64,000 nucleotides of DNA, taken from Parvibaculum lavamentivorans DS-1. GTDB lineage: Bacteria; Pseudomonadota; Alphaproteobacteria; Parvibaculales; Parvibaculaceae. How positions within the stretch are numbered: position 1 is the stretch's first letter; every line of letters begins with the position of its first letter. The DNA lies in NCBI RefSeq assembly GCF_000017565.1, contig NC_009719.1:2029001-2093000 (forward strand), given 5' to 3'. The notes under the pieces are model-generated. The model was not told the origin of the DNA. It was given only the letters and a program-made list of their open reading frames with translations, and ran no database searches. Both the position numbers and the translations under genes were made by a program. Of this stretch, positions 25,001 through 42,537 are shown one piece after another.

Positions 25001-25702
25001 GCGCGCACATGGACGCCGGAAAATGCCGTCGGCATCGGCGGCGCCTATCTCTGCGTCTACGGCATGGAAGGGCCGGGCGGCTACCAACTTGTCGGCCGCA
25101 CGGTGCAGATGTGGAACAGCTGGCGGCAGACGGAGAATTTCCAGAAGCCCTGGCTGCTGCGCTTCTTCGATAGGTTGCGCTTCTTTCCGGTATCGGCGGA
25201 AGAGTTGCTTGAGGCGCGTGAGGCTTTCCCGCATGGCAAGTATCAAGTGCGTGTGGAGGAAGGAAGCTTTCGTCTCAGCGATTATCTCTCCTATCTCGAC
25301 GAGAATGCCGCGGCGATTGACGATTTTCGGTCGATGCAACGGCAGGCTTTCGAGGAGGAGCGGCACCGCTGGGAGGCGCAAGGCATCGCCATGGCCTCGA
25401 TGGAGCCCGAAGTGGCCGCTATCGAGGAAATTTCCGATCTGCCGGAAGGAGGGCAACTTGTGGAAGCGGGTGTGCCCGGAAATGTCTGGTCGATAGGGGT
25501 TTCGCCCGGCGACGAGGTGGCGGCCGATCAGACGCTCGTCATTCTCGAGTCGATGAAAATGGAGATTGAGGTGCGCGCGCCGATGCCCGCCCGCGTGCAT
25601 GAGGTGCATTGCGCGCCTGGCAAGATGGTGCAGGCAGGGCAGGCGCTGGTAACGCTGGTGCCGCTCGATGAAGTGCAACCCAGGCTGGAGGCCGCGTCAT
25701 GA
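22085..25702 (+). CDS. Biotin-dependent guanidine/urea carboxylase
   Basis: A 1205-residue multidomain carboxylase. Residues 1 to about 445 are a biotin carboxylase (ANRGEIAVRVIKTLRRM, ATP-grasp glycine loop STAGGGGIGLQ, EVNTRLQVEHPVTEEVTG). About 450-770 is a KipA/AHS2-like and about 790-1060 a KipI/AHS1-like carboxyltransferase half. The C-terminus is a biotinyl domain with ESMKM, the biotin Lys being residue 1158. Homologues were called urea carboxylase, but those next to DUF1989 genes and guanidine riboswitches prefer guanidine, producing carboxyguanidine. The context here strongly supports guanidine. A 33-bp gap precedes it, and its stop overlaps the allophanate hydrolase start (ATGA). 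Confidence 0.92.
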   Translation: MFTRVLIANRGEIAVRVIKTLRRMGVSPVAIYSEADRFAPHVQLADDAFCVGPASVAESYLNVDAILDAVRESGAEAVHPGYGFLSENPEFASALSRDGVAFIGPRPEHMCAFALKHTARELAEKSGVPLLPGSGLIVDLDDALTQAEEIGYPVMLKSTAGGGGIGLQLCRSAADMPRLYDTVRRLALANFKDSGLFLEKYVAAARHIEVQIFGDGDGNVIALGERDCSAQRRNQKVIEETPAPNLEAGMRAALHEAAVRLGESVSYASAGTVEFIYDETERKFYFLEVNTRLQVEHPVTEEVTGLDLVEMMVRQAAGELGDLSACAREPKRHAIEVRLYAEDAGRNFQPSSGLLTEVSFPADARIDGWIATGTEVTPFYDPMLAKIIVKGETREEASAKLASALDATSVYGIETNLDYLRSLARSAAFLEGRMLTSTLGSYDYESAGIDVLAPGAQSSLQDYPGRVGLWNVGVPPSGPMDPLSHRLANRLVGNPDEAATLEMTLNGPTLRFRSDATIALCGAEMKATLDGAAVPFWQPVDVARGQTLALGAVEGAGQRAYLAVRNGFDAPVYLGSRSAFTLGRFGGHAPGALKTGDVLRINRQGAVLPVAAGLPVSARPALAREWEIAALYGPHGAPDFFLDDDIETLFGTEYEVHYNSARTGVRLIGPKPGWARKDGGEAGLHPSNIHDNAYAVGTIDFTGDMPIILGPDGPSLGGFVCPATLAKAELWKLGQLRPGDKVRFRRVSDEEAAEMRRAEEIWIATLARPAAPARLSTPQEDAVLARLTDLETAVTYRRAGDDYLLIEYGPIVLDFALRFRAHAMMTALEARALAGILEMTPGIRSLQIHFDPDVLPARKLLAILEEMERALPASADIEVPSRIVHLPLSWDDEAAQEAVRKYGTLVRPDAPWVPSNIEFIRRINGLAHIDDVRRIVFDADYMVFGLGDVYLGAPVATPLDPRHRLVTTKYNPARTWTPENAVGIGGAYLCVYGMEGPGGYQLVGRTVQMWNSWRQTENFQKPWLLRFFDRLRFFPVSAEELLEAREAFPHGKYQVRVEEGSFRLSDYLSYLDENAAAIDDFRSMQRQAFEEERHRWEAQGIAMASMEPEVAAIEEISDLPEGGQLVEAGVPGNVWSIGVSPGDEVAADQTLVILESMKMEIEVRAPMPARVHEVHCAPGKMVQAGQALVTLVPLDEVQPRLEAAS

Positions 25703-27489
25703 AGGGCTTTTCTTTTTCGGTCGCCTCGCTTCGGGCGGGCTTCGCCGCAGGCGTCCGGGCGGAAGATGTCGCGGCGGAGGCGCTCGCGCGCGCGGATGCC
25801 TGCGCCGACCCCGCGATCTGGATTTCACGTGTGCCGCATGAGGATGTGCTGGCGCGGGCCCGCGAACTCGACGCATTACCGCGTGAGCAGCGGGCGCGGA
25901 TGCCCTTGTTTGGCGTGCCGATTGCGATCAAGGACAATATCGATCTCACGGGGCTGCCGACAACGGCGGCCTGTCCCGAATTTTCCTATTCGCCGAAGGA
26001 AAGCGCGGCGGTCGTTCAGCGGCTGGTCGAGGCGGGCGCGATACCGATGGGCAAGACAAATCTCGACCAGTTCGCCACCGGCCTGGTCGGCACGCGCTCT
26101 CCGCACGGCGCGCCGCGCTCGGTCTTCAACGGCGATTACATTTCCGGCGGATCGTCGTCCGGTTCTGCCGTTGCCGTGGCCGCGGGGCTTGTCGGCTTTG
26201 CGCTTGGCACGGACACGGCGGGTTCGGGCCGCGTACCGGCGGCCTTCAACAATATTGTCGGGTTGAAGCCGACGCGGGGCTTGCTCTCCACGCGCGGCGT
26301 CGTTCCCGCTTGCCGTTCGCTCGATTGCGTATCCATCTTCGCGCTGACGGCGGAGGATGCGCAAACCGTGTTCGAGGCAGCGGCAGTGTTCGATCCTGCG
26401 GATGTCTATGCGCGCGCTCGAATGCCGGGAACACCGCCTCTGCCCAACGCGGGTTTCACCTTCGCGGTGCCGCGCGCATCGGACCTGCAATTCTTCGGCG
26501 ATGACGAGGCGGCGCGTCTTTTCGGTGAGGCATCCGAACGGTTGGAAGAGCTGGGCGGGCGAGCGCGCTGGATCGATTTTTCGATGTTTTCCGAGGCTGC
26601 CGCCCTGCTTTATGACGGACCGTGGGTTGCGGAACGTACGGCAGCTGTGGGCGGCTTTATCCAGAAGCACGAGGCGGCCGCCGATCCGACCGTGCGCGGC
26701 ATCGTGCTGGGCGGAGGTGCGCGCAGCGCGGTCGAGACATTCGAGGCGATGTACAAGCTCGAGGCGCTGAAGCGGCGCATGACGACGCTGTTCGCCGATA
26801 TCGATTTTCTCGTCGTGCCGACCGCGCCGACGATCTATCGGGTGGATGAGGTGATGGCGGAGCCGGTGAAGCTCAACAGCCGGCTCGGCACCTACACGAA
26901 TTTCATGAACCTGCTCGACATGGCGGGCATCGCGGTGCCAGCCGGCATCGGCGCGAAGGGATTGCCTTTCGGCATCACGTTGGCGGCTCCCGCCTTCTCC
27001 GAGGCAAAGCTTATCGGTCTTGCTTCCGCTTTTGCGGCAGCTCAGGGGCTTGCGCCCGGTGCGCCGGGGCGTCTTGTCGAGGATGAAGGCTTTATCGAAC
27101 TTGCCGTTGTCGGCGCGCATATGTCCGGCCTGCCGCTCAATCATGAGCTGACATCGCGGGGGGGCATGTTCGTCGAGCGGACGCGCACGATGCCGGGCTA
27201 CCGCTTCTATGCGCTGGCGGGCGGCCCGCCCTTCCGGCCGGGCCTCGTACGAGTTGCCTCCGGCGGCGCTTCGATCGAGCTTGAAGTCTGGAGGCTGCCG
27301 CGCGCGGCGTTTGGCGGCTTCATAGCCGGCGTGCCGCAGCCCTTGTGCATCGGCACGCTCGATCTTGCGAGCGGACGCAAGGTGAAGGGTTTTCTCTGCG
27401 AGGAAAGCGGGCTCGACGGCGCGGAGGAGATCACGGCGCTGGGCGGCTGGCGCGCCTATATGGCGCGGAAGCTGGAGAAGGCGAGCTAG
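25699..27489 (+). CDS. atzF: Allophanate hydrolase
   Basis: A 596-residue enzyme. The N-terminal amidase-signature domain has a complete Ser-cisSer-Lys triad: Lys78 in AIKDNIDL, a Ser in GGSSSGSA (about 152-154) and nucleophile Ser176 in TDTAGSGRVPAAFNN. The C-terminal domain (from about residue 470, LAVVGAHMSGLPLNHEL) matches the allophanate-hydrolase C domain, which completes decarboxylation. It converts allophanate to two ammonium and two CO2, the last step of guanidine (or urea) breakdown. Start ATG 25699 overlaps the carboxylase stop. Its 3' end overlaps convergent gmhB by four bases. Confidence 0.94.
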   Translation: MKGFSFSVASLRAGFAAGVRAEDVAAEALARADACADPAIWISRVPHEDVLARARELDALPREQRARMPLFGVPIAIKDNIDLTGLPTTAACPEFSYSPKESAAVVQRLVEAGAIPMGKTNLDQFATGLVGTRSPHGAPRSVFNGDYISGGSSSGSAVAVAAGLVGFALGTDTAGSGRVPAAFNNIVGLKPTRGLLSTRGVVPACRSLDCVSIFALTAEDAQTVFEAAAVFDPADVYARARMPGTPPLPNAGFTFAVPRASDLQFFGDDEAARLFGEASERLEELGGRARWIDFSMFSEAAALLYDGPWVAERTAAVGGFIQKHEAAADPTVRGIVLGGGARSAVETFEAMYKLEALKRRMTTLFADIDFLVVPTAPTIYRVDEVMAEPVKLNSRLGTYTNFMNLLDMAGIAVPAGIGAKGLPFGITLAAPAFSEAKLIGLASAFAAAQGLAPGAPGRLVEDEGFIELAVVGAHMSGLPLNHELTSRGGMFVERTRTMPGYRFYALAGGPPFRPGLVRVASGGASIELEVWRLPRAAFGGFIAGVPQPLCIGTLDLASGRKVKGFLCEESGLDGAEEITALGGWRAYMARKLEKAS

Positions 27490-28121
27490 AACGCGCTGTC
27501 GAGAAAGCCGCGCGCTTCGATGAGATCGGGCAGGACGGCGACCTTGAAAGTGCCGCCGGCGAGCGCGAGCGCCGCCTCGCGTTCCCTGGCGCCATAGCCG
27601 GTGAGCACGAGGAGGGCGCCCTTGAGGCCCGCGCGTTTCGCGGCCTCGATGTCGGCCGCCTTGTCGCCGATGAGCCAGCTTGCGGCGAGATCGAGGCCGA
27701 GCCGCTCGGCGGCATATTCGAGCATCCGGCAGCCGGGCTTGCGCCATGCGTCCTCGGCGGAGCCATAGCCGGGGGTGAAGTCGGGATGAAAGGGGCAGGC
27801 GATGGTGAGGTCGAGCGCAGCGCCCTTGCCGGCCAGTTGCCGTGTGATCTCGGCTTCCACAGCCTCGAATTCCGGCCATGAAACAAGCCCCCGCGCGATG
27901 CCGGACTGGTTGGTGACGCAGATGGCGGCATATTCCCGGGGCCACCCCTTCGCCCAGTTGATGATCTCGGCCGCGCCTGCCTCCAGCGCCACATCTTCCT
28001 TGTTTTTCAGATAGTTGACCTCCTTGACCAGCACCCCGTCCCGGTCGAGAAAGAGCGCCGGGGCGCCCTTGCCGGAGGGTTCGTCGCCGGTCGAAAGCCA
28101 GATGCCGTCCTGGGTGAGCAT
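27486..28121 (-). CDS. gmhB: D-glycero-D-manno-heptose 1,7-bisphosphate 7-phosphatase (GmhB-type HAD)
   Basis: A 211-residue HAD phosphatase with the nucleophile motif FLDRDGVL (Asp26 and Asp28), TNQSGIARG and the late IGDKAADIEAAKRAG motif, all typical of GmhB. It removes the 7-phosphate in ADP-heptose synthesis for LPS inner core. The four zinc ligands usual in GmhB (CPxH and CxC before RKP) are degraded here: CPFHP keeps Cys109 but shifts the His, and the CxC pair reads DAW before RKPG. I chose ATG 28121; the frame extends to a TTG at 28148 with no better SD. It is divergent from hldE, 100 bp away, supporting the heptose role. Confidence 0.85.
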   Translation of the reverse strand: MLTQDGIWLSTGDEPSGKGAPALFLDRDGVLVKEVNYLKNKEDVALEAGAAEIINWAKGWPREYAAICVTNQSGIARGLVSWPEFEAVEAEITRQLAGKGAALDLTIACPFHPDFTPGYGSAEDAWRKPGCRMLEYAAERLGLDLAASWLIGDKAADIEAAKRAGLKGALLVLTGYGAREREAALALAGGTFKVAVLPDLIEARGFLDSAF

Positions 28122-28221
28122 GAAGGAGCCTTGATGGGAGCCGAACAATTCAGCCGTTTTTACGCTATCTTGAGCGCCGCTTCGCCATGATTGCGCCCGC
28201 CAGTTTACCAGAGACCGCCTT

Positions 28222-29688
28222 ATGACCGTAAAAAGCCCGGATATTCAATCGCTTGTCGAGGGGCTCGGCCATGCGCGGGTGGCGCTTGCCGGCGATGTCA
28301 TGCTCGACCGTTTCGTCTATGGCCATGTAGAGCGGATCTCGCCGGAGGCGCCGATCCCCGTGCTGCGGGTGGATGAGGAGCGGGCGATGCCGGGCGGTGC
28401 GGGCAATGTGGCGCGCAATCTCGCCGCGCTCGGGGCCGAGGTCACCTTTCTCTCGGCGGTTGGCGACGATGAAGCGGGCGCCGACCTGAAGGCGGCACTC
28501 GAGCGCGAGGGCGGCATCGAGGCGGCGCTCACCGTCGTTCCGGGCCGGACCACGACCCAGAAAACCCGCTTCGTCGCGATGAGCCAGCAGATCCTGCGTG
28601 CCGACCGCGAGACGACGCAACCGCTCGATGCGGCATCGGCGGAAAGGCTTCTCGCCGCGCTCACCTCCGCACTGAAAGACCGGCAGGTGCTTGTGTTGTC
28701 CGATTACGGCAAGGGAGTGCTGACGCCTGCCTTCGCGCGCGGCGCGATTGCCGCCGCCAGGGCGGCCGGCATTCCCGTGATCGTCGATCCCAAGGGCCGC
28801 GATTATTCACTCTATGCGGGCGCAAGCGTCGTAACGCCGAACCGCAAGGAACTCGGCGAGGCGACGGGCGCCGCCGTCGATACGGATGAGGAAATCGTTG
28901 CCGCCGCGCGCGCGCTCATGAAAGCGCATGACATCGGCGCCGTTGTCGTAACGCGGGCACAGGCGGGCATGAGCGTCATCACTGCGGATGGCGCGGTTAC
29001 GCATCTCAAGGCGGAAGCACGGGAAGTGTTCGACGTGTCGGGTGCGGGAGATACGGTCGTCTCCACGCTCGCCGCCGCGCTCGGCACCGGCCTCACGCTG
29101 GCGGAGGCGGCGGGTCTCGCCAATTCTGCGGCGGGCATCGTCGTCGGCAAGGTTGGCACCGCCGTGGTGCACCAGGACGAGCTTCTGGCGAAATTGCGCG
29201 AACGCGAACTCTCCATGCTCGAAGCCAAGGTCGCCGGTCTCAAAAGCGCCGAGGACATCGTGGCGGGCTGGCGTGCGCGCGGGCTCACGGTCGGCTTCAC
29301 CAATGGCTGCTTCGATCTTCTGCATCCTGGACATGTAACGCTGCTGGAGCGGTCGCGCGCGCTGTGCGACAGGCTCGTCGTCGGCCTCAACAGCGATGCA
29401 TCCGTCAGCCGCCTCAAGGGGCCGGAGCGTCCCGTCCAGCCGGATATCGCGCGGGCAACCGTGCTTGCGGCCCTCGCCTCTGTCGATCTCGTGGTGATTT
29501 TCGAAGAGGATACGCCGGAGGCGCTCATCAAGGCGCTCAGGCCCGATATTCTGGTCAAGGGCGGCGACTACACGATAGACAAGATCGTCGGCGCCGATTT
29601 CGTGCAGGCGCATGGCGGACGCGTCGAGATCGTCGACATCGTGCCGGGCTTCAGCACCACGGGCACGCTCGCGCGTCTCAAGGGCTAG
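28222..29688 (+). CDS. hldE: Bifunctional heptose 7-phosphate kinase / heptose 1-phosphate adenyltransferase
   Basis: A 488-residue fusion. The N-terminal ribokinase-type domain has [15 protein letters not shown] and the anion hole/catalytic Asp [14 protein letters not shown]. The C-terminal nucleotidyltransferase begins near residue 340 with [16 protein letters not shown] (360-375) and [16 protein letters not shown]. The two activities phosphorylate D-glycero-D-manno-heptose 7-phosphate at C1 and, after GmhB action, transfer AMP to give ADP-heptose. Both active sites look complete. gmhB and gmhA lie on either side on the opposite strand, so the heptose pathway is clustered but not in one operon. 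Confidence 0.96.
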
Positions 29689-29696
29689 GAAAACAT

Positions 29697-30479
29697 ATGC
29701 CGGGCCTGGAAGAAGAACCGGCGTCGCGTCCTCCTCACTCCTGGTGGGATATTGTGGCGGTGCCGCTGCTCGCCATGGCGATGGCGGCTGTGGCTGCAGG
29801 AGGTGCGGCCCTTCTCTATGTTTTCATGCAGGAAATTCCGCTGGCGGAACTCCGGGAGACGGCAACGCGCGCGTTCCGCTCGACCTATGTCGTTTATGGC
29901 GCACAGGCGGTGCTCTATCTGGCAATCGTCTTTTCGGTCTGGGTGGTTCTGGCGTTGCGCGGATACCGCCTCCTTCCAACGCATTTTGCCGCCACTCGCG
30001 CGCGCTCCTTGCTGGCGGCTGTCGCTATCGGCGCCATGCTTGCGATCCTCGCCGTGCTTTTGCTGTCGCTTCTGCCGGAGGACACGCAGCGCCAGCTTGT
30101 CGAGGGGAGCGAACTTCTGATGCCGGAGACGGTGGGGGAAGCCCTGATGCTGCTCGTCATTGCCGCCCTGCTGGCGCCGCTGGTGGAGGAGCTCTACTTT
30201 CGCGGCATCGTGCTCCGCGTGCTCGAGGGCAGGTTTTCCTTTGCCGTGGCTGCGGCGATCACCGCCGTCTTTTTCACGCTGATGCACGGGCATCTGTTCA
30301 ACCTTCCCGGCCTTGGCGGGTGGGTGCTGACAGGCGTGATTTTCATTCTCGGTATGGTGCTGGCATGGTCGGTACGGTGGAGCGGCTCGCTCCGCCCCGC
30401 CATTGCCATGCATGCGGCCTATAATTTCACGCTTCTGGCGCCCGGCATGGCGGCCATGCTGACGGGCGTTCAGACGTAG
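29697..30479 (+). CDS. CPBP family intramembrane metalloprotease (Abi/CAAX-like)
   Basis: A 260-residue polytopic membrane protein. The CPBP signature is complete: EELYFRG (glutamate pair and Arg), FTLMHGH and the late HAAYNF. ATG 29697 is eight bases after the hldE stop, with AGGAAA just upstream, so it shares the hldE transcript. Family members are membrane proteases or prenyl-protein processing-like enzymes; in bacteria most have no known substrate. Its placement with heptose genes may be incidental. The 3' end overlaps convergent gmhA by ten bases. Confidence 0.85.
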   Translation: MPGLEEEPASRPPHSWWDIVAVPLLAMAMAAVAAGGAALLYVFMQEIPLAELRETATRAFRSTYVVYGAQAVLYLAIVFSVWVVLALRGYRLLPTHFAATRARSLLAAVAIGAMLAILAVLLLSLLPEDTQRQLVEGSELLMPETVGEALMLLVIAALLAPLVEELYFRGIVLRVLEGRFSFAVAAAITAVFFTLMHGHLFNLPGLGGWVLTGVIFILGMVLAWSVRWSGSLRPAIAMHAAYNFTLLAPGMAAMLTGVQT

Positions 30480-31078
30480 CCGAGCTGTTCCTCCAGCGCG
30501 CCGCACAGCATGTGGCCGAGCGTGATGTGCATTTCCTGGATGCGGGCGGTGGTTTTCGACGGCACGCAGAGAATGTGATCGGCGAGACCTTCCATGAGGT
30601 TCGCCTCGGCGCCGGCAAAGGCGGCGGTGACGAGGCCCTGCTTCCGCGCCGCCTCAAGCGCCAGAACCACGTTGCGGCTCTTGCCCGAGGTCGAGAAGCC
30701 GATGGCGAGATCGCCGCGCCGTCCCAGCGCCTCGATCTGCCGTTCGAAGACGCGCTCATAGCCCATGTCGTTTGCCGCCGCCGTCAGCACCGAGGTGTCG
30801 GTCGTGAGCGCGATGGCGGCGATGGCCGGGCGGTCCTTGATGAAGCGCACGGAAAGTTCTGCGGCAATATGCTGTGCATCCGCCGCGCTGCCGCCATTTC
30901 CGAAAAAGAGCAGCTTGCCGCCGCCCGCCACCGCTTCGGAGCAGGCCGCCACGAGGCCGGCGAAGTCCTGTTCGAGCTTTTTCGCCGTCTCATGCGCCAC
31001 TTTCATGTGTTCGTCGAAAGCGGCGTGGAAAATATCGTGTGCGCCCAAGGCCAGCGTCTCCCGCGTTTGTGACGGCAC
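30470..31078 (-). CDS. gmhA: Phosphoheptose isomerase
   Basis: A 202-residue SIS-domain protein with FFGNGGSAADAQHIAAEL, the classic GmhA signature, TTDTSVLTAAANDMGYE and GFSTSGKSRNV. It converts sedoheptulose 7-phosphate to D-glycero-D-manno-heptose 7-phosphate, the first step towards ADP-heptose. Length is standard. It is convergent with the hldE-CPBP operon, and with hldE and gmhB completes the pathway except for the HldD epimerase, which is not in the window. Confidence 0.94.
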   Translation of the reverse strand: MPSQTRETLALGAHDIFHAAFDEHMKVAHETAKKLEQDFAGLVAACSEAVAGGGKLLFFGNGGSAADAQHIAAELSVRFIKDRPAIAAIALTTDTSVLTAAANDMGYERVFERQIEALGRRGDLAIGFSTSGKSRNVVLALEAARKQGLVTAAFAGAEANLMEGLADHILCVPSKTTARIQEMHITLGHMLCGALEEQLGYV

Positions 31079-31303: not shown

Positions 31304-32680
31304 ATGAACGGGCGATGGGGGGCGGGCAGGTCCGCATTCAGTAAATTGGGCCGGAGCCGCGTACGGCCGGTGGCATTCGCGGCGGCGCTGGCGCTTTGCG
31401 CGGCTGGGGTGGCGACAGCGGGCACGCTTGAGGATGCCTCGCAGCGCCTCGCCCAGGGCGATCCGGGCGGCGCCTATCAGATATTGAAACCGGAAGAACG
31501 GGCCCGGGCGGGCAAGCCCGATTACGACTACATGCTCGGTATCGCGGCCATCGATTCAGGCCGTCCGGCGGAAGCCGTCGCGGCTTTCGAGCGCGTGCTC
31601 GCCGTCGAGCCCAATCATCTGCAGGCGCGGGCGGAGCTTGGCCGCGCCTATATCGCGATGAACGAGCCGGAAGCGGCGCGGCGCGAACTCGCCACCGTGG
31701 AAGCGCAACGGGACGTCCCGGACAGTGTCCGCGCCACCATCGACCGCTATGTCGCGGCCCTCGATACGGGGCTGTCGGGCGGCGGCACGACCATCGACAA
31801 TCGCGTCACGCTGCGTGCGGGCTATGACACCAACGTCAACAATTCGACCAGCGACAGCCGAATCCTGATCCCGGCCTTTGCCGGCCTCGGCTTCGCGACG
31901 CTCGGCGCGGGCGCGACATCGGAGGAGGATTTCTTCGGCGAGATCTCGGGCCGCACCTCGCTTACTCATGGCCTCGCCATCGACAAGCAGCTTCTGGTCG
32001 ATCTGAATGCGTCCTACAGGGCGAACTCCGACTTCGACCAGTTCAATCAGGGCCTTGCCGGCCTCAATGTCGGCTTCGCGCAGCGCACGCCCGATTACGG
32101 CACTTTCGCCATCACGGCACAGCTCCAGTCCTACTGGGTCGATGACGAGGCTTACCGCTACACCTATGGCGCGCTCGGCCAGTGGACCTATCGCACGGCG
32201 GGCATGACGGATTACGCCGTCTATCTGCAATACGCGAAGCTCAATTATCCGAACAACAGCGCCCAGAACGCGAACCGCTACACGGCGGGCGCGACCATCG
32301 GCCAGTTGCTCGGCGGCGAAAGCGAGCCTTACATCTATGGCGGCGGCTATGCGGGCTACGAAAAGCTCACCGACGGCACCTTCGATCATCTCTCCTATGT
32401 CTTTGCCGGTCTGCGGGCTGGCGGCGAGCTCACTCTGATGCCGCGCTTGCGTGGCTATGCGGTCGCCGCCGTCGAAGTCTCGGAATATGAGGAGCCCGAT
32501 CCCCTCTTCCTCGAAGAGCGGTCTACGGTGCGCAGCGACCTCTCGGCGGGCTTGCGCTATCAGCTCAGCAACGACCTCACCCTCGGTACGGAACTCGCCT
32601 ATACGCGCTCCGACAGCAACATCGTGCTCTACGAGTATGACCGCGTCGTTGCTTCCGTTTCCCTCAGCCTCGACTTCTGA
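31304..32680 (+). CDS. Slam/DUF560-type (type XI secretion) outer-membrane translocon candidate
   Basis: A 458-residue protein with a signal peptide (about residues 20-40), a TPR-like helical domain (about 42-140: GGAYQILKPEERARAGK, AVAAFERVLAVEPNHLQARAELGRAY) and a beta barrel (about 160-458) rich in alternating aromatic strands, ending in VASVSLSLDF with a terminal Phe as in outer-membrane barrels. TPR plus DUF560-like barrel is the Slam architecture, which moves proteins to the cell surface. SD GGGGTG precedes ATG 31304. It lies 18 bp before a large exported protein gene, as Slam genes do with their cargo. The family assignment is by architecture; plain barrel-TPR porin-like proteins are the alternative. 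Confidence 0.7.
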   Translation: MNGRWGAGRSAFSKLGRSRVRPVAFAAALALCAAGVATAGTLEDASQRLAQGDPGGAYQILKPEERARAGKPDYDYMLGIAAIDSGRPAEAVAAFERVLAVEPNHLQARAELGRAYIAMNEPEAARRELATVEAQRDVPDSVRATIDRYVAALDTGLSGGGTTIDNRVTLRAGYDTNVNNSTSDSRILIPAFAGLGFATLGAGATSEEDFFGEISGRTSLTHGLAIDKQLLVDLNASYRANSDFDQFNQGLAGLNVGFAQRTPDYGTFAITAQLQSYWVDDEAYRYTYGALGQWTYRTAGMTDYAVYLQYAKLNYPNNSAQNANRYTAGATIGQLLGGESEPYIYGGGYAGYEKLTDGTFDHLSYVFAGLRAGGELTLMPRLRGYAVAAVEVSEYEEPDPLFLEERSTVRSDLSAGLRYQLSNDLTLGTELAYTRSDSNIVLYEYDRVVASVSLSLDF

Positions 32681-32698
32681 TCCCAGGGAGCCTTGATC

Positions 32699-35600
32699 AT
32701 GAAAACGACTACGCTCAACCGGCTTCTCTCGACGACGGCGCTTGCCGCCGCGCTGGCGCTCCTTCCCGCCGCCGCATCCGCCTTGCCCGTCCTTTTCGGC
32801 GAGGCGAGCGTCGATGGCGTGACCATGGACGTCGCCAATATCGAACCGGGCCAGACCGTGACGGCAACGACGCTTCTCCAGCTTGTCGCGCCGGATGGCA
32901 GCATCATCACGGTCGAGCCCGGCTCGGTCTTCACCATGACGGGCGAGGGCGACAGCCTCTCCTTCGAGCTCGTCTCGGGCGCCATGCGCGTTGCTTCCAG
33001 TGGCACGCCGATTTCGGTCTCGCGCGGCGGCGTCACCGTCACCACGGAGGGTGGCGTCTTCAGCGCCTATGGCAATGATGAGGGCGGGCTCGATGGCCGC
33101 GTCAATCAGGGCACGGCAACGGTTCAGAACGGATCGGGCACGCGCGAGTTCGCACGCGGCGAGGGTTACGAGGCGAGCGAGACGAGCCTTGCGGGCACCT
33201 TCACGCCGCCCGTGCCGGGCAGCACGCAACTCGCGCAGCAGACGGGACCCGACGACGACACGAACTACTCGCCGGCCGATCAGCAGGGCTCGGGCGGGTC
33301 GCAGATCGTCGAGGAAGCCGCGGGCGGGGGAAGCGGCGGCGGTGGCAGCTATGGCGGTACGCCGCCTGTAACCGGTGTCGTCGTGCCGCTCGAAGGCGAC
33401 GAGGAGGCGGGCTATTCGGTGGTCTATGCGGCGGATGCCATCGGCATCGACGCGCGTGACCCGGCGAAGGTGACGATCGGCGCCAATGGCGAGCTCAATC
33501 AATATGATGTCGAACCCGATTTTGATGAGCGGCTGGAGCGGAATTCGAACGAATCCCTTGAGCGCGGCAATTCGGGCAATGCGGTCTTCATCGAACGTTG
33601 GGCGGGCGGCGAGACGCGCGGCAATTACTACAACAGCAACAATGGCACGTTCTATTCGGATATGGGCCGTACCAGCCATCAAGGCTTTCACATCGCCTAC
33701 GGCAAACCGACAGTGGACATGCCTGCAGCCGGCGTCGCCACCTATGCGCTGGCGGCGGCGACCAATCCCACCATCGATGACGGGAGCTTTGCGCCAGGCA
33801 GTTTCTCGGGGGAGATGTCGGTCCTGTTCGGGGCGACGCTCGGCATCGGTATCGACTTCGATATCGATATGCCTGGTGACCACCTCTACAACATCCGCAC
33901 GCCGGGCGGCGTCGGCAGCCCGACGACGGGCGGCATCTACTGGGACAATGCGGCGCGCGTCTTCCGCCTGAGCAACATTGCGATGTCGCAGGGCGGTGCG
34001 GCCTGTCCGACGGCGAATTGCAACGCGGTTGTCTATGGGCTCTTCGGTGGAACGGATGCCTCCGATATCGGTGTCAGCTACCAGATCATGGATTTCTCCA
34101 TCGCTCCCGACAGTCTCGGCCGGGCCAAGCGGATTTCCGGTGCGGCCGCCTTCTCGCAGGCGAGCTACGATGCGGGTGGCGGGCCGGACACGCCGCTGCC
34201 GATGGAGAGCGGCGCGGTCGATGCGCTTCTCGTCGCCTCCCCGGGGACGACCAAATGGCATGGCGGCGTCTATTACATTCCGCAGATCAATTTCTCGAGC
34301 GGGAAGAGCCTCGGCATGCAGAACGACATCGTTGCCTGGGGCGACGATGGGGCGGTGACCTTCATCCAGGCGACCGAGACATCGCTTGCGAGTTTCGATC
34401 GGGGCACGGCCGTCACGGCGGATCTCTATGGTACGGAGTATTTGCAGATTGGCCGCTGGAATGGCGGCGACATTGACGTCTATATGAGTGGCGACCAGAC
34501 CTTTTCGCCCAATGGCTATCAGGGCATTGTCTATCTTGTCGGCAATATGCTCGGCAGCACGCTGCGGCCCGAAAGTATCACCGCGACCTATGATCTTGCC
34601 GGCGCAACCGCGCCGATCTTTGCGGGCGGCAATTTTGCGCCGGGCGTATTCGACGGCACGGCGGCGATCCAGTTCGGGGCTTCCAATGCCAATGCCAAGA
34701 TGGGCCTCAATGCCACGGTCACGATGGACGAAGGCGACGATATCATCGTCTACAATATCTCGACCACGGGCGGCACAGCGACGCCAGGCACCAGCGAGAT
34801 CGACGTCTTCGGCAGCCAGATTTCCGGCAGCTATCAGGTGCAGGCGCCGAACGGCGCTGCTTGCTCCGGCTCAGCCGTAAACTGCAATGTCAGCATTCAA
34901 GGGCTGCTTGCCGGACCGCAGGCGCGCGAGGCCGGCATCCGCTATGCGGTCGGCAACACGGCGGCCAACTCCATCTACGGTGCAGCGATCTTCGCCCGCG
35001 ACGATGTGGGCGATACGCTGGACGGTTATCTGATGGGCATGACCTATGCGATCCGCAGTCCGCAAAGCGGGGTGCTCGCCGGCAGCTTCGGCGATATCAG
35101 CGCCGGTGCGACCGACATCACCATCATCGCGAACGAAGTGAAGGAGATTCACGGCTTCAACAATTCCTATGCGCCCGGCGATGCCACCGTGTCTGAAGTG
35201 GGCGGTGTGCAGAGCGTCGTCTCGTGGCAGCGCTGGTCCGATGGCCTGATCGGCGGAGAAAGCTTCGGAAATCCACGCACCACGGTGCTCGGCGAAGATC
35301 AGGGCATGCACGTGCTCGCCTGGTCGCCGGCAACGAATTTGCCGTCGGAAGGCGTCGCCACCTACACGCTGGCCGGCGCCACCAATCCGACGGTTGCGGA
35401 CGGTTCGCTTGCTCCCGGCAGCTTTGCGGGCGAGATGGCCGTTGCCTTCGGCTTCAATGCGGCAAATACGAAGATCGGCCTCGATCTCGACGTCTCGATC
35501 GGCGGCCACACCTACAATATCGCGACGACAGGCGGCACGGCGACGCCGGGATCGAGCCAGGTGAGCCTGAGCAACTTCTCCGGCTTCTCCAGTACGATCG

Positions 35601-35785
35601 ATGTTGCGACGGGCGGCGTTGCCTGTCCCGACGCGACATGTCAGGCGAAGGTTGCGGGCGCGCTGGCCGGCAGCGGCGCCAGCCATGCCGCGCTTGCCTA
35701 TACGATCTCGGCCAACGGCAATCCGACGGCGAAAGCGGTTCAGGGCGTCGCGGGCTTCGAGCGCGGTCCGATCGTGCTGCCATAA
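32699..35785 (+). CDS. Exported FecR-domain protein with three TbpB-barrel-like repeats, probable Slam cargo
   Basis: A 1028-residue exported protein. Residues 1 to about 28 are a Sec signal ending AAASALP with no lipobox Cys. About 30-165 is a FecR-like beta domain (VTMDVANIEPGQTVTATTLL, GSVFTMTGEGDSLSFELVSG). A Gly/Gln-rich linker follows (190-225). Three related modules then follow, each with an RW motif (Trp301, Trp587, Trp846), an ATY strand (near 345, 627, 885), an APGxFxGxxxVxFG strand and a Cys pair (436/441, 722/729, 976/981) that could form a disulphide. The ATY and FxG strands resemble the TbpB-type barrel carried by Slam cargo. ATG 32699 has CAGGGAG upstream. A terminator follows the stop. 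Ligand or partner is unknown. Confidence 0.7.
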   Translation: MKTTTLNRLLSTTALAAALALLPAAASALPVLFGEASVDGVTMDVANIEPGQTVTATTLLQLVAPDGSIITVEPGSVFTMTGEGDSLSFELVSGAMRVASSGTPISVSRGGVTVTTEGGVFSAYGNDEGGLDGRVNQGTATVQNGSGTREFARGEGYEASETSLAGTFTPPVPGSTQLAQQTGPDDDTNYSPADQQGSGGSQIVEEAAGGGSGGGGSYGGTPPVTGVVVPLEGDEEAGYSVVYAADAIGIDARDPAKVTIGANGELNQYDVEPDFDERLERNSNESLERGNSGNAVFIERWAGGETRGNYYNSNNGTFYSDMGRTSHQGFHIAYGKPTVDMPAAGVATYALAAATNPTIDDGSFAPGSFSGEMSVLFGATLGIGIDFDIDMPGDHLYNIRTPGGVGSPTTGGIYWDNAARVFRLSNIAMSQGGAACPTANCNAVVYGLFGGTDASDIGVSYQIMDFSIAPDSLGRAKRISGAAAFSQASYDAGGGPDTPLPMESGAVDALLVASPGTTKWHGGVYYIPQINFSSGKSLGMQNDIVAWGDDGAVTFIQATETSLASFDRGTAVTADLYGTEYLQIGRWNGGDIDVYMSGDQTFSPNGYQGIVYLVGNMLGSTLRPESITATYDLAGATAPIFAGGNFAPGVFDGTAAIQFGASNANAKMGLNATVTMDEGDDIIVYNISTTGGTATPGTSEIDVFGSQISGSYQVQAPNGAACSGSAVNCNVSIQGLLAGPQAREAGIRYAVGNTAANSIYGAAIFARDDVGDTLDGYLMGMTYAIRSPQSGVLAGSFGDISAGATDITIIANEVKEIHGFNNSYAPGDATVSEVGGVQSVVSWQRWSDGLIGGESFGNPRTTVLGEDQGMHVLAWSPATNLPSEGVATYTLAGATNPTVADGSLAPGSFAGEMAVAFGFNAANTKIGLDLDVSIGGHTYNIATTGGTATPGSSQVSLSNFSGFSSTIDVATGGVACPDATCQAKVAGALAGSGASHAALAYTISANGNPTAKAVQGVAGFERGPIVLP

Positions 35786-35810
35786 GCGAAGCGCTTTACG
35801 ACGCCGTGGA

Positions 35811-35838
35811 AAAGCGGGACGAAGATGTCCCGCTTTTT
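35811..35838 (+). terminator. Rho-independent terminator of the Slam-like/cargo operon
   Basis: AAAGCGGGAC (35811-35820) and GTCCCGCTTT (35827-35836) form a ten-pair stem with loop GAAGAT, followed by further T residues to 35838. It lies 26 bp after the cargo stop and fits a strong forward terminator. Confidence 0.88.
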
Positions 35839-35861
35839 CATGTCACCAATACTCAGCAAGC

Positions 35862-37257: not shown

Positions 37258-38247
37258 CTAGATGACGCCCGCTTTCAGGAAATCATGGATATGGACCAGG
37301 CCGACCGGCCGTCCGTCCTCGACGACGAAGAGGCTGGTGATCTTTTTCTCGTTGAGGATTTTTACCGCTTCGGAGGCGAGGAGGCCGGGGGCGACCGTTT
37401 TCGGCGACCGGTTCATGATGTCGCTCGCGTTCCGCCCGAGCAGGCCCTCGCCCGAATTGCGGCGGATGTCGCCATCGGTGATGACGCCGACAAGCTTGCC
37501 CGCGCCGTCCACGATGCCGGCGCAGCCGAGGCTCTTCTGCGACATGACGAGGAGGACTTCGGACATCGGGGTGGCGGGCGCTGCCAGCGGCAGGGCGTCG
37601 CCGGTATGCATGACCTCGGAGACATGGCGGAGCATGGCGCCGAGCTTGCCGCCCGGATGGAAAACGCTGAAGTCGCGGGCGGAAAAACCTTTCCGTTCGA
37701 GCAGCGCCATCGCCAGCGCGTCGCCCAGCGCGAGCTGCATGGTGGTGGAGGTGGTCGGTGCGAGCTTGTTTGGGCAGGCCTCTTCGGCACGCGGCAGGAA
37801 GAGGCCGATATCGGCGGCGGTGCCGAGCGCGCTTTTTGCCTCCGCCGTCATGGCGACGAGCGGGATGGCGAACCGTTTTGCGTGCGAAATGATGCTGGAG
37901 AGTTCCGCCGTCTCGCCGGACCAGGACAGCGCCAGGATGACGTCGCCCGAGGTGATCATGCCGAGGTCGCCATGGCTTGCCTCTCCGGGATGGACGTAAT
38001 GGGCCGGTGTGCCGGTGGAGGCGAGGGTCGCGGCGATCTTGCGGGCGATATGGCCGGATTTGCCCATGCCCGTCACGATGACGCGGCCGGTGGCCTCGCC
38101 GAGTTGTTCGACCGCCTCCGTGAAGGGCCCGTCAAGCGAGGCGGCGAGCTGCTTCAGCCCTTCGATTTCGAGCATCAGCGTGCGCTGGGCAGAGGCGAGA
38201 TGGGCGGCGCGGGTATCCGGGATTTTCTGGTCGGTGGGACGGGGCAA
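37258..38247 (-). CDS. kpsF: D-arabinose-5-phosphate isomerase (KpsF/KdsD)
   Basis: A 329-residue protein with an N-terminal SIS domain (VTGMGKSGHIARKIAATLAST, ALSWSGETAEL, PTTSTTMQLALGDALAMALL) and two C-terminal CBS domains (VITDGDIRRN, SLFVVEDGRPVGLVHIHDFL), the full KdsD/KpsF layout. It converts ribulose 5-phosphate to arabinose 5-phosphate, the precursor of Kdo for LPS or capsule. Located between heptose genes and the polysaccharide locus, it fits an envelope-glycan neighbourhood. Confidence 0.95.
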   Translation of the reverse strand: MPRPTDQKIPDTRAAHLASAQRTLMLEIEGLKQLAASLDGPFTEAVEQLGEATGRVIVTGMGKSGHIARKIAATLASTGTPAHYVHPGEASHGDLGMITSGDVILALSWSGETAELSSIISHAKRFAIPLVAMTAEAKSALGTAADIGLFLPRAEEACPNKLAPTTSTTMQLALGDALAMALLERKGFSARDFSVFHPGGKLGAMLRHVSEVMHTGDALPLAAPATPMSEVLLVMSQKSLGCAGIVDGAGKLVGVITDGDIRRNSGEGLLGRNASDIMNRSPKTVAPGLLASEAVKILNEKKITSLFVVEDGRPVGLVHIHDFLKAGVI

Positions 38248-39463: not shown

Positions 39464-40129
39464 ATGCGTTGGACTGCGGATTTTTTCGATTTTATGCCCG
39501 GTGACGGCAGCAGGTTTTTGGCCGCCGGATGGTTGCGCCGCGCGGCGCTGGCGGCTGGCGGGCTGCTTGTCCTGGTCCTGCTCTCCGCCTGCACGGATGG
39601 TCCGCGGACCAATGCGGCCGGCCCCGCTGCCGCCACCTCGGAGGGCGACGTGCCTTTGCCGCCGGATGCCGATATCGATTACAAGCTCGGCTCGGGCGAC
39701 AGGCTCCGCGTCATCGTCTTCGGCGAGCCGGATCTTTCCGGCGAGTTCGATGTCAGCGGCTCCGGCAGGGCGGCCCTGCCTCTCATCGGCCAGGTCCAGG
39801 CGGAAGGTCTTACCCTCAGCACCTTCGAGGATGCGGTCGAGCAGAAGCTGCAGGAAGGCTATCTGACCAGCCCGCGCGTCAGCGTCGAGGTTCTGAATTA
39901 CCGGCCCTTCTATATCTATGGCGAGGTGGGCGAACCGGGACAATATCCATACACGAGCGGCCTCACCGTGCTTAACGCGGTGGCCGTGGCGGGCGGCTAT
40001 ACCTACCGGGCGAACCAGAGCCGGGTCTACATCACACGCGGCACGGGCGACGAGGTCGAGTATCCGGCGAGCCAGGCCGTGAAGGTTCTCCCCGGCGACG
40101 TGGTCCGCGTGCCCGAGCGATTCTTCTGA
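39464..40129 (+). CDS. Short polysaccharide export (OPX/Wza-like) lipoprotein
   Basis: A 221-residue protein with a long charged leader, hydrophobic segment and lipobox LLSAC (Cys43), then a polysaccharide-export domain (DYKLGSGDRLRVIVFGEPDL, GQVQAEGLTLSTFEDAVEQ) and an SLBB-like domain (VYGEV-type strand FYIYGEVGEPGQYPYTSGLT, LNAVAVAGGYTYRA). It stops at RVPERFF, with no C-terminal helix or further SLBB domains, so it is much shorter than E. coli Wza and cannot form the outer-membrane pore itself. Such short OPX proteins work with a separate beta-barrel, which is encoded two genes downstream. First gene of the export block. Confidence 0.9.
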   Translation: MRWTADFFDFMPGDGSRFLAAGWLRRAALAAGGLLVLVLLSACTDGPRTNAAGPAAATSEGDVPLPPDADIDYKLGSGDRLRVIVFGEPDLSGEFDVSGSGRAALPLIGQVQAEGLTLSTFEDAVEQKLQEGYLTSPRVSVEVLNYRPFYIYGEVGEPGQYPYTSGLTVLNAVAVAGGYTYRANQSRVYITRGTGDEVEYPASQAVKVLPGDVVRVPERFF

Positions 40130-40482
40130 CGTGACTGGCTGTCGACCGGCCTGTGCAGCAGAAAAAAGCCCCCCGGCTGGAAACAAAACCCGCGCCGCGC
40201 ATTCATGCTGCGGGGCAGTATAGCTATTTAAACCGGCGGTTGCAGAAGCGAGGTATTTTCGCAACGGCGAGAAAAAACTTCGACCGTCAGGGCGCCTGCG
40301 GCCCGCGGGAGCAAGAGTCGCGCGGGACTCGGATGCGGCTTGTGGTAAGATTTTGTTAGGAATGAATGGTCTGCAGGCTTCCGTTTCCGCTTCGCCGTTC
40401 TGTTGTATTTTTGTGAGACTGTGGGATTGGAACCGGCCCTTTCCGGCGCCGGTTTATCGGGTCTGACAGGGGAGTTAAGTCC
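40130..40482. other. Intergenic region, 353 bp, before the secreted-protein gene
   Basis: No convincing gene. It is more AT-rich than its surroundings in 40210-40280 (TATAGCTATTTAAA) and 40345-40420, which probably hold promoters. A short inverted repeat AACCGGC (40431-40437) / GCCGGTT (40448-40454) lies in the leader just before the SD GGGGAG of the next gene. I cannot assign a regulator. Confidence 0.4.
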
Positions 40483-41010
40483 ATGATGAAGAACTTCTTT
40501 GCGGCAGCTGTGCTGGCGTTTGGCCTTGCTCTTGCCCCGGCGATGCTGGCTGTCTCGCCCGCCGCCGCACAAGGCAGCGTTGAGATGCAGGCTGAAGTCG
40601 AGGCCTTGATCCTGGCAAACCAGGATGACGAGGCGGCTCTCGAACTGGCGATCTCCACCTACATCACCTCCGCCGAGGATCCCGAGCTCGCCACCCAGGC
40701 CGTCATTGCGGCCCTCGTGAATTCGCAGAACCCGGAACTGGTGCAGCTGCTGATCGAAAAGCCCGGCCTCAAGCTCGCGGCCGGTCGCGGCATTGGCGCT
40801 GCGATCGCCATCGTTGCGCTCACTAATCCGACTGCTGCGGAAAACATGCTTGCCCTGGTGCAGGCGTCGGGCGATCAAACGCTGATCGCCGCCGTCGTCG
40901 AGGGTCGCGATGCCCAGACGGCGTCGCTTGTCGGTCGCGGTGTGGATACCGGTGCGGATGTGCTTGAGGGTGAAGAATCGACGCCTGAAGAGGCTGCGAG
41001 CGGCAACTGA
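40483..41010 (+). CDS. Secreted helical protein of unknown function in polysaccharide locus
   Basis: A 175-residue protein with a clear signal peptide (MMKNFFAAAVLAFGLALAP, cleavage after SPAAAQ). The mature part is predicted to be alpha-helical, with HEAT-like or ARM-like alternation (AALELAISTYITSAEDPELA, AVIAALVNSQNPELVQLLIE), and ends in an acidic tail (EGEESTPEEAASGN). SD GGGGAG lies upstream of the ATG. It sits between the short OPX lipoprotein and the outer-membrane barrel genes, so it likely serves the export machine as a periplasmic accessory. I recognise no family. Confidence 0.75.
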   Translation: MMKNFFAAAVLAFGLALAPAMLAVSPAAAQGSVEMQAEVEALILANQDDEAALELAISTYITSAEDPELATQAVIAALVNSQNPELVQLLIEKPGLKLAAGRGIGAAIAIVALTNPTAAENMLALVQASGDQTLIAAVVEGRDAQTASLVGRGVDTGADVLEGEESTPEEAASGN

Positions 41011-41108
41011 AGATTTACAATTGCGTCGGTACGACGTTCCGCCCGGATGGCCGGTGCGGGGCGGTTTTGGGGGTGCGAGTCGTGACTAGTTTCAGCGGGA
41101 GAATATCC

Positions 41109-42380
41109 ATGACACGTGGCAAAGCACGCGTTGCATCCCTGGCTGCGGGGATTTTGATGGCGTCTGCCTTCGCGGCCGACGCCCAGGAAGCCGAGGCAAA
41201 TCTTGTTGATGCGCGCGGCCAGAGCGTCATGGAGCGGGAGCGTCCCGGTTACGATGCCGCCGGCATCCGCGCAGGCGGCTTCATGGTTTATCCCGAAGCC
41301 TCCATCTCGGGCGCCTTTAACGACAACATCTACGCGCTGCCCGGCAACGAGACGGATGATTTCATCACCACCGTTGCCGCCCGCGTCAATGCGAACTCCA
41401 CCTGGAGCCGCCATGCAATCAGCCTGCGGGCCGGTGTTGCGCAGGATTTCTACGCCGACAATACCGACGAGAACCGTTTCAACTGGAATGTCGGCGTCGG
41501 CGGCCGGCTCGATGTGACGCGCGACACCTCGATCAATGCGAATGCGGGTTATGCCGTGCTTCATGAAGATCGCGGCGATCCGAATGCGCCTGCAGCGGCT
41601 GACGAACCCATTGAATACACGCTCTTCAATGCGGCGGCCGGCATCCAGCACAGGTTCAACCGGATCAGCGTGGGCCTCGATGGCGAATATCTCAGCTATG
41701 ATTTCGACAACGCCGTTACCACGGCCGGCGCCCCGATCCTGCAGGATGACCGCGACCGCGAGGAATTCATCCAGCGTCTCCGTCTCGGGTATAATGTCTC
41801 GCCCGATACGCTCGTCTATGTGGAAGGGCAGCTCGATCAGCGCAAATACGACCTGCAGCCGCCCGCCGTCGCCACCAATCGCGACTCCGATGGTCGCCAG
41901 ATCGTCGTCGGTTCGGAATTCCGCCTCACCAATCTCGCGCAGGGTGGCGTCTATGTCGGCTATCAGGAGCGCGAATATGACGATGCCGCGTTCGGCGATA
42001 CGGACGGCATCGCTTATGGCGCCAATGTCGACTGGTTCGTGACGCCGCTTACGACGATCCAGTTCACGGCCGATGCCAGCGTGCAGGAAACCACTGTCGC
42101 CGGCTCTTCCGGCTACGACAGGCAGCAGTTCGGCGTTGGAGTGGACCATGAGCTGCTTCGCAACCTGATCCTGCGCGGCGCCTTGTCCTATGCCAATAAC
42201 GACTACAATGATGCGGCGCGCGAGGACGACATCATCGGTGCGCGGGCGGGTCTCGTCTATCTGCTCAACCGTAATCTCGATCTCGAATTCGGCTACAACT
42301 ACAGTGACCGGGATTCGAGCGTTCCGGCCTTCAGCTATACGCGGAACATCATCGGGCTCACCGTTACCGGCAAGCTCTGA
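41109..42380 (+). CDS. Outer-membrane beta-barrel protein (BBP2 type), polysaccharide export
   Basis: A 423-residue protein with a signal peptide (ending AADAQEAEA) and a barrel of many short amphipathic strands (AGGFMVYPEASISGAFNDNIYA, written here in part as FMVYPEASISG, then SLRAGVAQDFYA, LEFGYNYSDRD). This is the VpsM/BBP2-type barrel found in exopolysaccharide loci of Vibrio, Myxococcus and many alphaproteobacteria. It likely supplies the outer-membrane channel for the short OPX protein encoded upstream. I chose ATG 41109 with GGGAGA upstream; an earlier in-frame start at 41067 would precede the signal peptide with polar residues. Confidence 0.85.
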   Translation: MTRGKARVASLAAGILMASAFAADAQEAEANLVDARGQSVMERERPGYDAAGIRAGGFMVYPEASISGAFNDNIYALPGNETDDFITTVAARVNANSTWSRHAISLRAGVAQDFYADNTDENRFNWNVGVGGRLDVTRDTSINANAGYAVLHEDRGDPNAPAAADEPIEYTLFNAAAGIQHRFNRISVGLDGEYLSYDFDNAVTTAGAPILQDDRDREEFIQRLRLGYNVSPDTLVYVEGQLDQRKYDLQPPAVATNRDSDGRQIVVGSEFRLTNLAQGGVYVGYQEREYDDAAFGDTDGIAYGANVDWFVTPLTTIQFTADASVQETTVAGSSGYDRQQFGVGVDHELLRNLILRGALSYANNDYNDAAREDDIIGARAGLVYLLNRNLDLEFGYNYSDRDSSVPAFSYTRNIIGLTVTGKL

Positions 42381-42405
42381 ACAGCTGGCTTAGCCGGACG
42401 AAGAT

Positions 42406-42447
42406 ACAGGGGGCAGGCAAGGCGAAAGCCTCGGCCTGCCCTGTCTG
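42406..42447 (+). terminator. Probable terminator after the barrel gene
   Basis: ACAGG plus GGGCAGGC (42406-42418) pairs with GCCTGCCCTGT (42434-42444) leaving a small bulge, with an inner GGC-GAAA-GCC hairpin. TCTGTTT follows. It sits 26 bp after the barrel stop and would separate that gene from the autokinase operon. The U-tract is imperfect. Confidence 0.55.
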
Positions 42448-42537
42448 TTTGAGGGCCGGTAGTGACGGCTCCGCATAGGAACAAGAAACGGGCGTGTGTA
42501 TGCTAGTGTTTGAGGCTGCGGATATGGGAATTCGGCG

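Follow-up and report, generated by a model that had tools for sequence, protein, structure and literature searches.

The adjacent genes at positions 31304-35785 of the window, by which we mean the whole 64,000-nucleotide stretch of Parvibaculum lavamentivorans DS-1 DNA that was analyzed, probably form a type XI (Slam-like) secretion unit of two genes, and we read them as a variant of the type XI secretion system (T11SS) that serves a FecR-headed cargo, perhaps for sensing. Its new part is the FecR head; multi-barrel and non-lipidated T11SS cargos have already been published. The pair, which lies within a closed genome of 3.91 Mb, had originally been predicted as a gene for a TPR and barrel protein followed after 18 bp by a 1028-residue exported protein, and the ORFs at 31304-32680 and 32699-35785 confirm this arrangement, whose features are as follows:

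31304..32680, + strand: putative T11SS translocon, a Slam-like (PF04575, SlipAM) outer-membrane protein (OMP) of 458 aa, assigned by SlipAM score, model and C-terminal Phe
31424..31765, + strand: predicted periplasmic TPR region of the OMP, residues 41-154, 7 helices (Pfam TPR_19, 46.4 bits; helices of the model)
31787..32674, + strand: predicted 14-strand beta-barrel of the OMP, residues 162-457 (model; Foldseek match to OmpG, TMt 0.73; SlipAM over residues 209-457)
32681..32698, + strand: gap of 18 bp between OMP and cargo genes, with AGGGAG resembling a ribosome-binding site (sequence)
32699..35785, + strand: putative T11SS cargo of 1028 aa, with a FecR-like head and three barrel modules (translation; orthologues)
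32699..32782, + strand: putative signal peptide of the cargo, residues 1-28, without a lipobox Cys (inspection by eye; the first Cys is residue 436)
32786..33202, + strand: FecR-like domain of the cargo, residues about 30-168 (sub-cut-off Pfam FecR match; model compared with 4m0h and 6ovk)
33203..33406, + strand: predicted disordered linker of the cargo, Gly/Ser/Gln-rich, residues about 169-236 (pLDDT below 50 at model residues 139-207; composition)
33407..34177, + strand: cargo module 1, residues 237-493, a handle-like part and then a predicted barrel (model; matches to hemophilin, HphA, TbpB, fHbp and NHBA)
34178..35008, + strand: cargo module 2, residues 494-770, a homologue of module 1
35009..35782, + strand: cargo module 3, residues 771-1028, putative C-terminal barrel, a homologue of module 1
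35805..35842, + strand: terminator-like hairpin closing the two-gene unit (-26.8 kcal/mol, z -5.5, equalled in 0 of 200 shuffles)

The view of the first gene as translocon-like holds up well: its product scores 30.6 bits with Pfam SlipAM against a cut-off of 22, and an AlphaFold2 model built from nine sequences (mean pLDDT 76.6, pTM 0.65) comprises seven TPR helices and fourteen strands. This strand number equals that given for Slam, described as a TPR region with a predicted 14-strand barrel in the available text of PMC5449769. The model is accordingly that of a predicted Slam-type translocon architecture, with export of the cargo across the outer membrane as its putative function; the TPR_Slam model reaches 18.1 on the OMP, under its cut-off of 35.2. 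Fold alone, however, cannot separate Slam from other TPR porins, because BcsC ranks first among the PDB matches of the model (Foldseek), where PelBC is also present, and no Slam stands in the best 50.

The BcsC match, together with the presence of Poly_export, BBP2_2 and GNVR genes in the neighborhood, speaks for an alternative in which the OMP would be a TPR porin of the BcsC, PgaA or PelB type for polysaccharide export that belongs to the nearby heptose-type and exopolysaccharide genes, the cargo being a separately exported matrix protein. The barrels of BcsC and PgaA have 16 strands, whereas that of our model has 14; moreover, SlipAM is above its cut-off while Pfam gives no polysaccharide-porin family on the OMP. 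The NCBIfam BcsC model matches over the TPR part only (22.5 versus 858 bits), and the best phmmer matches of the OMP against solved structures lie in the same part. In favor of this alternative, a mostly-PgaA cluster had to be filtered from the DUF560 similarity network of PMC8406197; yet a porin of this kind would fit poorly with the single presence pattern common to OMP and cargo and with the recurrence of a like pairing in other genera, and we do not favor this alternative, which we consider improbable.

The presence pattern was obtained from the own genome and 60 relatives: of these 61 genomes 12 carry the cargo (E <= 0.001), exactly these 12 also carry the OMP (E <= 1e-20), and the two genes adjoin in all 12, in keeping with the earlier treatment of the two genes as a unit. 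All carriers are within Parvibaculum, 27 genomes of which, own included, were searched; in one of them (G010) the cargo is divided between two contigs. Of the 12 aligned cargo rows, ten have three modules; G022 has two, and a contig titled Hoeflea has one. The latter, a short contig (L026:125-3008), encodes an 82% identical OMP and a one-module cargo, and may represent either a form that naturally has a single module or a MAG contig under a wrong label. When the cargo profile was run over 289 genomes of the class, matches were obtained in three, namely the own genome, G232 and G134, and in the last two the OMP directly precedes a one-module cargo; FecR reaches 40.8 bits, above the Pfam cut-off, in the cargo of G134, and Pfam lists nothing for that of G232. 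The Parvibaculum OMP groups with those of G232 and G134 (support 100/99). G323, which belongs to the genus of G232, also has an OMP and cargo pair; apart from it, a search for intermediates in the vicinity of G134 and G232 yielded just G322, a partial match.

As for the surroundings, upstream neighbors of the Parvibaculum pair are also found upstream of the pair in several relatives. The pair is flanked by HAD-like hydrolase, PfkB/cytidylyltransferase and SIS-domain genes, which we take to be of heptose type (27486-31078), and by a SIS-CBS gene (37258-38247). Farther downstream, the domain scan places exopolysaccharide export genes at 39464-44808 (Poly_export/SLBB, a BBP2_2 barrel and a GNVR/AAA chain-length type). 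At 22085-27489 lie a biotin-dependent carboxylase (CT_A_B, CT_C_D) and then an amidase with AH_C, whose domains suggest a pair of urea carboxylase and allophanate hydrolase. The hairpin at 35805..35842 is absent from the output of a consensus scan, and a promoter scan found 1 site versus 1.2 in shuffles.

The cargo begins with what appears by eye to be a Sec-type N-terminus without lipobox. FecR is the only family that the Pfam scan reports on it, at 15.2 bits and below the cut-off of 24, and a FecR search of the own genome gives 0 matches. A model of head and module 1 (464 residues, 20 rows, modules 2 and 3 deepening the module part; mean pLDDT 70.6, pTM 0.55) predicts the FecR-like head fairly, with ten-residue pLDDT means of 73-88 over model residues 1-130; the linker poorly; the handle-like part of module 1 also poorly (pLDDT mostly 48-61); and the barrel part of module 1 well (mostly 83-96 over model residues 301-464, falling to 77 and 70 in places). 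Compared with the PDB by Foldseek, the head retrieves 4m0h (E 9.1e-5) and 6ovk (E 2.3e-4), its fold matching the FecR/PupR periplasmic domain (4m0h, 4m0n, 6ovk) at 3.5 A across 123 columns. The FecR-like domain claimed for the N-terminus is upheld by the predicted fold but not by Pfam at its cut-off. A head of this fold might also suggest classical FecI-FecR cell-surface signalling with the cargo as anti-sigma regulator, an explanation that we do not favor and regard as very improbable: inspection of the cargo shows an initial signal peptide and no anti-sigma region that would lie in the cytoplasm, and the domain scan of ten neighbors of the pair found neither a sigma factor nor a TonB receptor.

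The three cargo modules are repeats of one another well beyond chance; by sequence, modules 2 and 3 are homologues of module 1, and the assignment of a barrel to the C-terminal module 3 is by this homology alone. Each module holds one RW motif and one Cys pair; as the protein has no further cysteine, this would fit disulfides of an exported protein. In Foldseek comparisons the modelled barrel of module 1 matches hemophilin (7re4, E 5.6e-5), HphA (8gmm, 2.8e-4) and TbpB (4o3y, 3.7e-4), with fHbp and NHBA ranking lower; among the best of these barrel-protein matches the rmsd over the whole stretch is at least 9 A, and from residue 316 of the model onward DSSP assigns nine strand segments instead of eight. 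It is by this modelled fold, not by sequence, that the Parvibaculum modules are tied to TbpB barrels: TbpB_B_D (PF01298) has no Pfam match on the cargo and 0 in the own genome, phmmer of the cargo against solved structures returns nothing, and hhalign of the modules versus PF01298 barrels and versus FecR-cargo barrels gives probabilities of only 7.8 and 3.1. Because of this poor profile comparison we claim for module 1 a likely TbpB-type barrel fold, and not membership of PF01298; a sequence-level proof of the modules as TbpB barrels failed at the same two values. Of the three TbpB-barrel-like repeats originally proposed, the repetition, the motifs and the predicted fold of module 1 have stood, but hhalign and Pfam do not bear out the barrel.

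A broader survey shows that the FecR head is not peculiar to the Parvibaculum protein. A SlipAM search returned 38 matches, 36 of them above cut-off, and 30 loci were counted; a FecR neighbor is present at 7 of these 30 Pfam-selected loci, Parvibaculum's own included, two of the seven (Parvibaculum and G232) being recognized by the family profile only. Of 20 regions examined, 7 have a FecR ORF beside the OMP-profile match (L070, L071, L072, L075, L078, L079, L083); none was found there in the remaining 13, where the profile match is in some cases limited to the TPR part. Since 426 FecR matches in 289 genomes amount to roughly one per few Mb, chance neighbors are estimated at well under 1%.

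The midpoint-rooted OMP tree had 38 rows, 26 chosen by Pfam and 12 added; as 11 of the 12 were picked for their FecR neighbor, only the Pfam-chosen rows, one of which is Parvibaculum's own, are unbiased. Left out of the tree were L106 (a fragment), L098, L100 and L113 (no full frame) and L104 (short), the genome of L113 coming back as L146, and L102 and L141 were trimmed to the C-terminal part. All 18 FecR-adjacent OMPs fall inside one 20-row group (support 86/94, not starred), completed by G158 and G122, and the FecR label changes 3 times on the tree versus 13 in shuffles. Restricted to the Pfam-chosen rows (n=26), a FecR neighbor accompanies 7/9 inside the group and 0/17 outside, or 6/8 inside without Parvibaculum. 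When FecR-adjacent OMPs were scanned singly, SlipAM was found in only 2 of 9, one above cut-off.

Of 14 FecR-type neighbors scanned with Pfam, 13 clear the FecR cut-off (8/9 and 5/5 in two sets). TbpB_B_D appears sub-threshold in 4 of the 14 (17-22 bits, cut-off 26), all from the second set (4/5), the genomes of these four having been preselected by weak TbpB_B_D search matches; the first set has 0/9, though L071 has a weak FHBP_C. With hhalign, the C-terminal regions of nine FecR cargos align to eight PF01298 barrels with probability 97.8 and E 8e-13, where the nine-cargo profile includes the four with sub-threshold TbpB_B_D and the E value holds for one comparison. From these scans and this alignment it is likely that FecR-headed TbpB-type proteins exist beside Slam-like proteins independently of the diverged Parvibaculum case, and the FecR head marks a group of alphaproteobacterial Slam-like systems. 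In G158 (L144:4175-7129) an OMP of the same group stands beside a 985-aa protein with TbpB_B_D at 28.4 bits and no FecR match, perhaps another head type.

The Parvibaculum pair can be set against known systems. Like T11SS/Slam (DUF560, PF04575) with TbpB_B_D cargo, it joins a TPR and 14-strand barrel OMP to an exported protein that would end in a TbpB-type barrel; it differs by the FecR-like cargo head, by barrels too diverged for PF01298, and by having no TonB receptor in the ten neighbors scanned. Hemophilin and HphA, soluble T11SS cargos that give the best-ranked solved fold for module 1 and are likewise non-lipidated, have a single module and no FecR head, unlike the Parvibaculum cargo. 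Triplication and lack of lipidation, both once put forward as novel, had to be abandoned as new features: the available text of PMC12282271 describes cargos of Sphingomonas and Psychrobacter, some of them soluble, in which the handle-barrel unit is present two to three times, and that of PMC8406197 a large class of soluble, signal-peptidase-I T11SS cargos. The Sphingomonas and Psychrobacter cargos carry a Pro/Thr or PTD repeat N-terminus where Parvibaculum has its FecR-like domain (PMC12282271). That FecR on a cargo was undescribed fares better, FecR being absent from the main text of PMC8406197, PMC12282271 and PMC5449769; the feature is, however, common to a group of systems. In the open-licence literature we found no paper on FecR with T11SS, on FecR with surface lipoprotein assembly modifier, or on FecR with CHASE2 and tetratricopeptide, and among the matches listed in a broader search of titles and abstract starts of that literature none joined a FecR cargo to Slam.

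CHASE2 genes are a second recurrent companion: among the 18 FecR-OMP loci, 8 (G062, G118, G163, G182, G212, G214, G239, G309) have one within the flank retrieved, on the opposite strand in G182, and none was seen in the other 10, flanks being of unequal size. Four of the CHASE2 proteins (G118, G212, G214, G309) were scanned with Pfam and all were confirmed, three of them having a cyclase domain and the fourth being cut off by the end of the region. No CHASE2 match occurs within the 64-kb Parvibaculum window, and the sole match of the genome, at 2710912, is remote from the pair. On the 6.7-kb contig of G122 (L156:1099-4886), a CHASE2 ORF directly follows a Slam-like OMP and there is no FecR protein. 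The Parvibaculum pair would be a member, lacking a CHASE2 neighbor, of a wider alphaproteobacterial group in which Slam-like proteins stand beside a FecR-headed protein and, at several loci, a CHASE2 protein.

How the pair might work can be outlined under the T11SS reading. Sec would export both proteins, BAM would insert the barrel protein into the outer membrane, and the OMP would pass the barrels of the cargo outward, where they would fold and each may close one disulfide. The FecR-like part of the cargo, set off by a linker some 70 residues long, would be the functional head, either outside or periplasmic. FecR has a periplasmic role elsewhere, and this together with the long linker makes retention of the head inside attractive, if still tentative. 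As proposed for Slam in the available text of PMC9090332, the OMP may recognize the cargo, while still unfolded, by its C-terminal barrel, in which case the N-terminal head could come last or remain inside.

A special case of the T11SS reading, to which we give rather less than even weight, is an outside-in sensor: the barrels would be outside and the head periplasmic, the disordered linker would thread the translocon, and ligand binding outside would be read inside, in relatives by the CHASE2 neighbor, T11SS then serving signalling and not nutrient capture. It is favored by the Foldseek match of the head to the PupR cell-surface signalling domain, by the disorder of the linker in the model and by CHASE2 at 8/18 loci; conversely, the CHASE2-free Parvibaculum window with its remote single gene, the 10/18 loci where (with unequal flanks) none was seen, and the opposite strand of the G182 copy count against it. 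Precedents exist in other bacteria. A Campylobacterota cluster of CHASE2 cyclase, phosphodiesterase, FecR-domain and TPR proteins, proposed as one signalling path (PMC9239204), has the same domain types as the eight related loci; it differs in its phosphodiesterase, and from the Parvibaculum window in having CHASE2, and its main text mentions no Slam, T11SS, DUF560 or TbpB. A Burkholderia biofilm operon for LysM-FecR and a CHASE2 histidine kinase (PMC5192318) likewise encodes a FecR protein with a CHASE2 sensor, as in the relatives, but with FecR fused to LysM and, in the available text, no barrel translocon. In S. meliloti, the outer-membrane barrel protein NsrA acts upstream of CHASE2 cyclases and signals to them (PMC7529298, PMC13001267, as far as the available texts go), and a FecR-domain protein figures in a study of the same regulon (PMC5498481, available text).

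These findings single out an alphaproteobacterial Slam-like group with a recurrent FecR-headed neighbor as offering a named, testable cargo class, and the CHASE2 neighbors hint at a tie between T11SS and cyclic-nucleotide signalling that we did not find in the open-licence literature. It is conceivable, though we hold it only tentatively, that a distinct T11SS branch acts as a trans-envelope sensor, in which a Slam-like pore displays FecR-headed barrels and the periplasmic head signals to CHASE2, Parvibaculum having a form without CHASE2 neighbor and with multiplied modules. According to the available text of PMC8406197, nine of ten T11SS clusters are without a characterized protein and likely have as-yet-unknown cargo, and few barrel cargos were found in the marine cluster 3 (PMC12282271, available text). 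Were the sensor branch real, some of those nine clusters would gain a cargo class.
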